DNA of 32,515 nt, from assembly GCA_024277755.1 (NCBI GenBank), contig JAJRUN010000121.1, positions 1-32,515 on the forward strand, given 5' to 3'. The position numbers and the translations under genes were made by a program. Each line of letters begins with the position of its first letter. Position 1 is the stretch's first letter. The notes below the pieces were generated by a model. That model made no database searches and was not told where the DNA came from. It saw nothing but the letters and a program-made list of their open reading frames with translations. Shown piece by piece: positions 11,894-14,382 of this stretch. The stretch comes from Gammaproteobacteria bacterium (lineage in GTDB: Bacteria > Pseudomonadota > Gammaproteobacteria > Tenderiales > Tenderiaceae).

Positions 11894-12952
<1,059 letters not shown>

Positions 12953-12973
12953 TCGCAAACGGACTTTTTTATG

Positions 12974-12997
12974 GCTGGCAGGCGGGGGCCTGCCAGC
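12974..12997 (+). promoter_or_regulatory. Perfect stem-loop between mreB and mreC
   Basis: GCTGGCAGGC and GCCTGCCAGC form a perfect 10-bp, GC-rich stem around a GGGG loop, starting 22 bases after the mreB stop. No T tract follows (ATTGAATATAG), so it is not a standard terminator. It could act as an attenuator, an mRNA-processing or 3'-protecting structure that sets mreB above mreC and mreD, or a Rho-related barrier. The structure is certain; the function is inferred. Confidence 0.7.
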
Positions 12998-13045
12998 ATT
13001 GAATATAGATATTAACCATCAGCCTTTTAGGCTAGAGGGCGCATC

Positions 13046-13891
13046 ATCAAACCCCTATTTGTACACGGCTCATCTGCCAGCGTACGCTTTCTCGCGTGCC
13101 TGCTGCTCTCTATTCTGTTAATGACACTGGATCACCGTTTTCAGTACCTGAAAGAGATTCGCGCCGTTGTTTCTGTGATTGTCTACCCGGTGCAGTATAT
13201 TGTGAATTTCCCGGTCAGTGCCGGCAAATGGGCCGATGACAGTTTTTCCAGCCGTGAAGCGCTGATGGCGGAAGTCACCCGCCTCAAAACCCAGCAATTG
13301 CTCTACGACGTCAGGCTGCAAAAACTCGCTGCACTGGAAAGTGAAAACATGCGTTTGCGCCGACTGCTGGACTCATCATCAAAAGTCGGTGAGCGGGTCT
13401 TGATTGCCGAACTGCTGGCGGTGGATATGGAGCCTTTTTCCAGTCAGATCGTCATCAACAAAGGCAGCGGCGACAACATCTACCCCGGCCAGGCCTTGTT
13501 AGACGCCAACGGCATCATGGGACAGGTGACCAGTGTTGAGCCACTCACCAGCACCGCTACCCTGATCACTGACCCCAATCACGCCATCCCTGTGGCAGTG
13601 AACCGCAACGGCTTGCGCACCATTCTTATCGGCACCGGCAGCTCAGAACAATTGGATATCCCCTACTTCCCCAATAATGCCGACATCCAAATCGGCGACC
13701 TGCTGGTTAGCAGCGGCCTGGGGGGGCGTTTTCCACAAGGTTATCCTGTTGCCACCATTACCGAAATTGATATTGACCCCGGTCAGCCCTTTGCCCGGGT
13801 CAGAGCCAAACCCACCGCAAAACTACAGCGCAGTCGCGAAGTATTGCTGGTCTGGCCAAACAAAGCTGACACAGACGGAGAGCAAAACTAA
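13046..13891 (+). CDS. mreC: Rod shape-determining protein MreC, apparent ATC start
   Basis: Bitopic membrane protein whose periplasmic beta-domains link MreB to PBP2 and RodA. The first ATG in frame (13121) lies inside the only membrane helix, so it cannot be the true start. The frame is open back to a TAG at 13028-13030, and no ATG, GTG or TTG occurs between that TAG and 13121. At 13046 the frame reads ATC-AAA-CCC-CTA-TTT, aligning with the MKPIF start of E. coli MreC, with AGAGGG seven bases upstream. From there the product has 281 residues: helix about 16-28 (LACLLLSILLMTL), a coiled coil about 70-110 ending LESENMRLRRLLDSS, then the two beta-domains with GLGGRFPQGYPV. Its stop overlaps the mreD ATG by one base. 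Confidence 0.93.
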   Translation: MKPLFVHGSSASVRFLACLLLSILLMTLDHRFQYLKEIRAVVSVIVYPVQYIVNFPVSAGKWADDSFSSREALMAEVTRLKTQQLLYDVRLQKLAALESENMRLRRLLDSSSKVGERVLIAELLAVDMEPFSSQIVINKGSGDNIYPGQALLDANGIMGQVTSVEPLTSTATLITDPNHAIPVAVNRNGLRTILIGTGSSEQLDIPYFPNNADIQIGDLLVSSGLGGRFPQGYPVATITEIDIDPGQPFARVRAKPTAKLQRSREVLLVWPNKADTDGEQN

Positions 13892-14382
13892 TGGCACATG
13901 CAACCCGCGGCGGCAGCATAGTGGTCATCGGTCTCACTTTTTTCACCGCCCTGGCGCTGACCATTGTCCCGCTACCGGAGTGGCTGGTTGATTTTCGCCC
14001 CGAGTGGCTGGCATTGGTTTTGATCTACTGGTGCATGGCTCTGCCTAGCCGTATCGGCATTCTGACCGCCTTTACCCTAGGGCTATGCCTCGACGTCCTC
14101 AAAGGCGGAATATTAGGGCAACACGCTCTGGCACTGATTGTTATTACCATTCTGACCCTCAAAATCTACCAGCAAATTCGCGCCTACCCGATGTGGCAAC
14201 AGGCCCTCAGCATTATGGGGCTGATCATCCTTTATCAAATTCTGGTGATGTGGATCAACGGCATTATTGGTATCCAGAGCAGCAACTGGAACTACTGGTT
14301 GCCCGCCATCAGCAGCACTCTGCTGTGGCCCTGGCTTTACCTGATCCTTAGAGATGTCAGGCGACATTTTGGCATCAGGTAA
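13891..14382 (+). CDS. mreD: Rod shape-determining protein MreD
   Basis: Integral membrane partner of MreC in the elongasome. It has 163 residues, matching the family. The very hydrophobic sequence has about five or six membrane segments (for example VVIGLTFFTALALTIVPLP and HALALIVITILTLKIYQQI). The family-typical FRPEWLALVLIYW and the LGLCLDVLKGGILGQHAL segment are present. Its ATG overlaps the mreC stop (TAATG), which indicates translational coupling. mrdA starts nine bases after its stop. Confidence 0.95.
   Translation: MAHATRGGSIVVIGLTFFTALALTIVPLPEWLVDFRPEWLALVLIYWCMALPSRIGILTAFTLGLCLDVLKGGILGQHALALIVITILTLKIYQQIRAYPMWQQALSIMGLIILYQILVMWINGIIGIQSSNWNYWLPAISSTLLWPWLYLILRDVRRHFGIR

Follow-up and report, generated by a model that had tools for sequence, protein, structure and literature searches.

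A putative near-cognate AUH start codon of mreC recurs across the Gammaproteobacteria and may keep translation initiation weak

An isoleucine codon at the start of mreC

In a 32,515-nucleotide stretch of a gammaproteobacterial draft genome (contig JAJRUN010000121.1, Tenderiaceae; hereafter the window), the cell-shape gene mreC almost certainly starts at an ATC codon (positions 13046..13048, + strand), judging from the local sequence and its conservation. This ATC is one copy of a near-cognate AUH start (where H is A, C or U) that, on alignment, recurs across the Gammaproteobacteria and that appears to be held by selection. The reading as a whole, i.e. ATC 13046 as the start, a recurrent AUH codon maintained by selection and a weak initiation of MreC and MreD as its effect, seems quite likely.

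Counted from the ATC, mreC (13046..13891, +) has 281 codons plus the stop, and its product scores above both family-model cut-offs (TIGR00219, 191.3 bits vs 92.75; PF04085, 144.1 bits vs 28). The frame is closed on the 5' side by an in-frame TAG (13028..13030, +), after which it reads GCT AGA GGG CGC ATC ATC AAA CCC CTA TTT. Not a single ATG, GTG or TTG occurs in it between this TAG and the ATG at 13121..13123 (+), i.e. codon 26, which is the first canonical in-frame codon, lies inside the hydrophobic stretch and is not the main start. Together with the relatives discussed below, this confirms what an earlier note on this DNA had claimed, namely that mreC lacks ATG, GTG and TTG at its natural start and has an ATC instead. 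The note had also matched ATC-AAA-CCC-CTA-TTT to the usual MKP(I/L)F start and seen AGAGGG at a fitting distance, both of which were borne out: the annotated ATG of mreC in Escherichia coli K-12 (MKPIF) stands at the aligned codon 1, and within the Shine-Dalgarno (SD) sequence AGAGGG (13034..13039, +) the GAGG ends 7 nt before the ATC at 13046, with an anti-SD duplex energy of −6.3 kcal/mol. The range in which the note had placed the start, 13043-13048, holds two ATCs, and here only the second half stood: the ATC at 13046 is conserved in relatives, whereas the first one (13043..13045, +) is ACC in locus L003 and GTC in L004, L005, L006 and L011, and was rejected as a start because it is not conserved.

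Locus L003 belongs to the nearest relative (G005; 95% protein identity), in which the sequence reads ACC-ATC-AAA-CCC. Seven genomes of the genus were searched, and each of the six that gave a match has ATC, ATT or ATA as the codon before AAA-CC (the alignment of some distant loci stopped short of residue 1), whereas the codon preceding it varies (ATC, ACC, GTC). In a draft of 153 contigs that is 85% complete, an assembly or sequencing error turning ATG into ATC might be suspected, but the ATC is also present in G005, a separate assembly, and a sequencing error is therefore not its cause. Since ATC, ATT or ATA also stands at this position in other, independent genomes of the genus, and 82 of 155 families show one of the three there, an origin by error is refuted, and we give it practically no probability.

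Another question is whether ribosomes initiate at a canonical codon further inside the gene (ATG 13121 in the window, an earlier GTG or TTG in others), leaving the ATH codon (i.e. ATA, ATC or ATT) unused. Codon 26 is a nearly invariant Met in alignment A1, and gene finders restricted to ATG, GTG and TTG would choose such a codon. An internal start would, however, mean the loss of codons 2-25 (13049..13120, +), which encode the N-terminal tail and the beginning of the membrane helix, and with them much of the membrane anchor. Among the 70 nearest pairs, the ratio of non-synonymous to synonymous substitution rates (dN/dS) is 0.10 (codons 2-6), 0.13 (codons 2-13) and 0.20 (codons 2-25), so that codons 2-13 are at about the level of codons 60-130 (0.12); being under purifying selection, codons 2-13 are therefore translated. 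In addition, an SD core of at least 4 nt was found in 98 of the 129 strict ATH loci of the first data set, where strict stands for an ATH at codon 1 without in-frame ATG, GTG or TTG back to the preceding stop, and in 91 of these 98 its spacing from the ATH is 6-9 nt. The dN/dS of codons 2-13 and the position of the SD relative to the ATH speak against an internal start, which, also in view of the E. coli ATG at the aligned codon 1, is very improbable and was rejected. Residue 1 of the MreC chain 7eft (its source is not given, but with 367 residues it is as long as the E. coli protein) likewise aligns with codon 1 of a Pseudomonas mreC.

Starts further upstream were ruled out for the strict loci: in 15 of them the frame is closed by a stop no more than two codons ahead of the ATH, and in 35 within four codons. 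Codon 1 further differs in composition from the isoleucine codons within the gene: ATA is found there in 26 of 129 strict loci, compared to 13.0 expected gene by gene from the internal isoleucine codons (z 4.1), among which ATA is the rarest (217 of 2,018 in these mreC genes). Such an excess fits what would be expected if no isoleucine tRNA reads the codon.

As a separate observation, C is enriched just before the ATH at positions −2 and −1 (0.60 and 0.55, compared to 0.44 and 0.41 in mreB), and G is nearly absent at −2 of the mreC loci (0.02).

Recurrence across the class

Altogether 336 loci were collected, from the genus set, a scan of titled genomes (the best 80 of 586 confirmed candidates), a class-wide sampling (MreC in 263 of 293 genomes), a phylum sampling (MreC in 126 of 150, its 30 loci all stemming from the window's class or its own genome) and E. 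coli K-12. After removal of 22 duplicates and 3 loci without a start, 311 distinct mreC loci remained, of which 276 could be anchored by a Phe at codon 5 (with a tolerance of one inserted residue) and 35, with divergent N-termini, were set aside. MreC matches turned up in other classes too, and the start-codon counts cover the window's class, the Gammaproteobacteria.

Codon 1 is ATH in 193 of the 276 anchored loci, a strongly positive outcome of the check on the conservation of ATC/ATT across relatives that the note had proposed, and 161 loci are strict (ATC in 71, ATT in 59 and ATA in 31). By family code, an ATH case occurs in 82 of 155 families and a strict one in 74. Titled genomes with a strict ATH include Pseudomonas, Stutzerimonas, Lamprocystis, Thiorhodococcus drewsii, Ectothiorhodospira, Methylophaga and Candidatus Thiodiazotropha, and two Methylobacter genomes combine an ATH start of mreC with an upstream TTG. 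Because ATH recurs at the aligned first codon in so many loci, a chance origin is excluded.

Some loci depart from this pattern. A GTT (L047, Halioglobus, and L392) or CTG (L090) stands at codon 1 where a canonical start is lacking and a G-rich, SD-like stretch precedes the gene, and these are possibly other near-cognate starts. In a Competibacter-like group (L053, L059, L065, L074 and L111) a GTG or TTG is available at codon −9 and codon 1 then varies (Ile, Val, Ser, Phe), which is a natural contrast to the ATH start.

Start codon and Shine-Dalgarno strength

The strict ATH loci have a median anti-SD duplex energy of −7.1 kcal/mol, with 146 of 161 at or below −4.4 kcal/mol, versus a median of −3.2 kcal/mol for mreC genes starting with NTG (i.e. 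ATG, GTG or TTG), of which 12 of 37 reach that threshold. The SD is thus weaker than −4.4 kcal/mol in 25 of the 37 NTG genes, including that of E. coli K-12 (ATG, −3.0 kcal/mol). As controls, the sequence 43-60 nt upstream and shuffled start windows of ATH loci (n = 129) gave −2.7 and −4.0 kcal/mol, respectively. Corrected for the tree, the difference in SD between ATH and NTG loci amounts to 3.12 ± 0.53 kcal/mol (p = 1.5e-8, n = 240), or 2.83 ± 0.58 kcal/mol (p = 2e-6, n = 198) when only the strict classes are used. It is on this regression, and not on independent pairs, that the association between codon and SD rests; the underlying tree is unrooted and comprises 308 MreC proteins with the first 28 codons left out, and the regression lambda was at its bound of 1.

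The same tree-corrected test, with control starts chosen among canonical codons only, was not significant for mreB (+0.50, p = 0.29, in the same direction as mreC) or for mreD (+1.05 ± 0.76, p = 0.17). A canonical start codon was absent in 5 of 237 mreB loci (L001 has no mreB start, and the other 4 may likewise be truncated) and in 1 of 233 mreD loci. Local mRNA folding around the start was considered as a further difference, but none was found between ATH and NTG mreC (p = 0.80).

The association between codon and SD in mreC suggests, as evolutionary evidence, that weak initiation is a selected trait. We consider it fairly likely that stabilising selection favours weak mreC initiation, which would be reached via the codon in most lineages and via a weak SD in others. 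The note's view that weak expression of mreC relative to mreB is the likely purpose of the odd codon would thereby be supported.

Proposed mechanism

By analogy with known systems, the initiator tRNA-fMet would pair with the AU of AUC, with a mismatch at the third base, while the strong SD would recruit the 30S subunit to the AUH codon; as a result of proofreading by initiation factor IF3, many initiation attempts would then fail. The outcome would be a low rate of MreC synthesis relative to that of the ATG-started MreB, and MreD would be lowered too, via the overlap of the mreC stop and the mreD start. In the ATG lineages (including E. coli), which mostly have no good SD, initiation would be weak by another route. 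It is thus by analogy that we infer fMet initiation at AUC, the sensitivity to IF3 and the low output of MreC and MreD, and selection would presumably act against an excess of MreC. That such an excess matters is supported by two papers: Liu et al. (2020) describe morphological defects upon MreC overexpression that are suppressed by co-expression of MreD (PMC7793260), and in the model of Martins et al. (2021) the accumulation of MreC past a threshold is a possible signal (PMC8137920).

Alternatively, the ATH codon could be a historical accident, with a strong SD that evolved to restore normal mreC output and a codon that was simply kept by history. The strong SD does go with ATH, the independent-pairs test (see below) is not significant, and ATH versus NTG follows the tree, with at least 20 changes between the two compared to a mean of 43 in 50 label shuffles (the direction of these changes is not given by the unrooted tree). 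On the other hand, each ATH is only one point change away from ATG, and the tree calls for at least 60 substitutions at the third base that leave it A, C or T (i.e. between ATA, ATC and ATT; 193 rows). If full output were wanted, ATG should have been gained frequently with the SD being kept, yet 25 of the 37 NTG SDs are weaker than −4.4 kcal/mol. An explanation by history is therefore improbable, and selection for weak initiation remains the one that we prefer.

Several points do weigh against it. The class is split: of the anchored loci, 47 have NTG at codon 1 (37 plain and 10 with a further upstream candidate), 22 have a canonical start upstream only and 14 have neither (these three classes being based on the simple Phe5 anchor), 32 of the ATH loci have an in-frame NTG further upstream, and 35 of all 311 loci are unanchorable. 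The strong SD is kept in 12 of the 37 NTG genes (e.g. L169, L179 and L216), and the SD estimate for mreD has the same sign as that for mreC, even if it does not reach significance. The independent-pairs test, under-powered with its 7 well-supported pairs, was not significant (3.7 in the predicted direction, 1.2 in the opposite one). It may also be that the strong SD merely offsets the weak codon, giving an ordinary output, and the reviewers of Liu et al. raised the question whether the effect of MreC is specific or reflects a generally disturbed stoichiometry (PMC7793260).

Operon layout and the mreB-mreC spacer

Open reading frames and family models place the genes of the window in the order mreB-mreC-mreD. 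mreB (11903..12952, +) starts with ATG and matches NCBIfam TIGR00904 with 531.8 bits (cut-off 365.75); 93 nt separate its end from the second ATC (13046). The ATG of mreD (13891..14382, +) shares its A with the end of the mreC stop (TAATG), and because of this overlap the translation of mreD is probably coupled to that of mreC. The gap between mreC and mreD has a median of −4 nt in 125 ATH loci.

The spacer between mreB and mreC contains a strong hairpin with a 10-bp stem and a GGGG loop (GCTGGCAGGC-GGGG-GCCTGCCAGC; 12974..12997, +), the sequence of which is not kept in the 95%-identical relative (L003), although folding predictions give different hairpins at about this location. The note had suggested that such an upstream stem-loop could act together with the odd codon in keeping MreC low, which turned out to be unsupported. 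While the spacer of the window (12953-13029) is indeed over-folded relative to dinucleotide shuffles (z −3.26), the median z is −1.65 for ATH and −1.42 for NTG loci, and z is below −2 in 42% of 114 ATH and 42% of 19 NTG loci (for spacers giving 45-250 nt, 30 shuffles each). Being equal in both classes, the over-folding is not tied to the ATH codon, nor is the hairpin specific to ATH-start loci, and a partnership of hairpin and codon is not supported; the hairpin may have a role of its own. Structure in the spacer of both classes is possibly a second layer of control, and the spacer could serve to attenuate transcripts, or as a processing site, ahead of mreCD. The interpretation offered by the note is, overall, partly supported.

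Directly 5' of the SD lies a small helix (AGCC-TTTTA-GGCT; 13021..13033, +), and a similar one is found in relatives of the genus (AGCC/GGCT, CGCC/GGCG, CAGCCCC/GGGGCTG). The relatives provide weak evidence for its conservation, since a compensatory A-T/C-G change in L003 is set against a broken pair in L005.

Consequences for annotation

Gene finders that accept only ATG, GTG and TTG would truncate MreC. When the codons of P. insulae mreC are numbered from its ATH, the P. aeruginosa MreC construct 97-258 of Martins et al. (2021; 6zm0, PMC8137920) corresponds to codons 113-274, an offset of 16. From this offset, and by inference from other Pseudomonas genomes, the annotated start of P. aeruginosa MreC would therefore be at codon 17, with the cytoplasmic tail missing. 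In L323-L325, which have a very similar MreC, codon 17 is a GTG with no canonical codon before it, and several titled Pseudomonas also have GTG there. The P. aeruginosa numbering (PDB 6zlv, 6zm0; PMC8137920) thus seems to count from codon 17, which lies within the hydrophobic stretch, a truncation that is probably due to an unrecognised ATH start.

Searches of the open-access literature listed no earlier report of a non-canonical start of mreC, and passages of PMC5945682, PMC3694923 and PMC3244453 are silent on it. The AUH genes would be considerably extended by a core cell-shape gene that starts in this way in dozens of families, among them that of Pseudomonas.

Comparison with known AUH systems

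To our knowledge, few bacterial genes have AUU, AUC or AUA starts, and of these infC and pcnB serve translation or RNA metabolism. infC encodes IF3 and has an AUU or AUC start by which IF3 autoregulates its own synthesis, and pcnB, for poly(A) polymerase, starts with AUU in E. coli. As a positive control, infC was inspected at 30 loci of relatives: an ATH start, judged by eye, was present in all 21 loci that could be parsed, with an in-frame NTG further upstream in three of them (L265, L286 and L291), which lends support to the parallel with infC drawn in the note. The draft assembly to which the window belongs (85% complete) yielded no infC. pcnB in the window's genome (L300, G000 contig 97) reads GGGGCCAAAACT-ATT-AAC, and ahead of the conserved domain there is just one alternative candidate, a TTG located 18 codons upstream. 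In the genus relatives L296, L298 and L303 the ATT has no canonical codon upstream (ACT/ACC-ATT-AAC/AAT), and the relative L301 has an upstream ATG. The genome of the window thus likely holds at least two genes with an AUH start, i.e. mreC and pcnB.

It is possible, though less likely than not, that the codon does more than throttle MreC at a fixed level and exposes it to changes in IF3 activity, such that envelope growth follows the state of initiation. The same class of codon is found in infC and in pcnB of this genus, and Feeney et al. (2017) show that IF3 represses a non-canonical start (PMC5472188). However, 47 of the 276 anchored mreC loci use NTG, and free IF3 may be near constant, infC being autoregulated. 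The broader proposal, that in most Gammaproteobacteria the dosage of MreC is under direct initiation-factor control (with ATG minus SD elsewhere), linking the rate of side-wall synthesis to IF3 and to the initiation state of the ribosome pool, is a reading that we consider less likely than not. If true, infC, pcnB and mreC would constitute a small recurrent AUH regulon, through which an effect of translation capacity on cell width could be put to the test.

Among the known systems, infC resembles mreC in having an AUH start combined with an SD that recurs across families, and discrimination by IF3 would be expected in both. It differs in that the product of mreC is a morphogenetic membrane protein without an autoregulatory loop, and in that E. 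coli mreC uses ATG. pcnB shares the AUH start, but is located outside the mre operon. In Streptomyces, according to Feeney et al. (2017), sigR has a GTC start with an extensive ribosome binding site, is repressed by IF3 and sets the stoichiometry of its operon, holding SigR below its operon partner RsrA (PMC5472188). The likeness lies in a non-canonical start and extensive binding site that set the ratio of two operon partners and were missed by annotation; the start is, however, GTC or GTT rather than AUH, the gene encodes a transcription factor, and the paper, which describes it from Streptomyces, saw no sign of it in two further actinobacteria (PMC5472188). Another comparison is with the orthologous mreC of E. 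coli K-12, which has the same mreB-mreC-mreD order and similar first residues (MKPIF), but which combines an ATG with the lack of a good SD (−3.0 kcal/mol), whereas the window combines an ATC with a good one.
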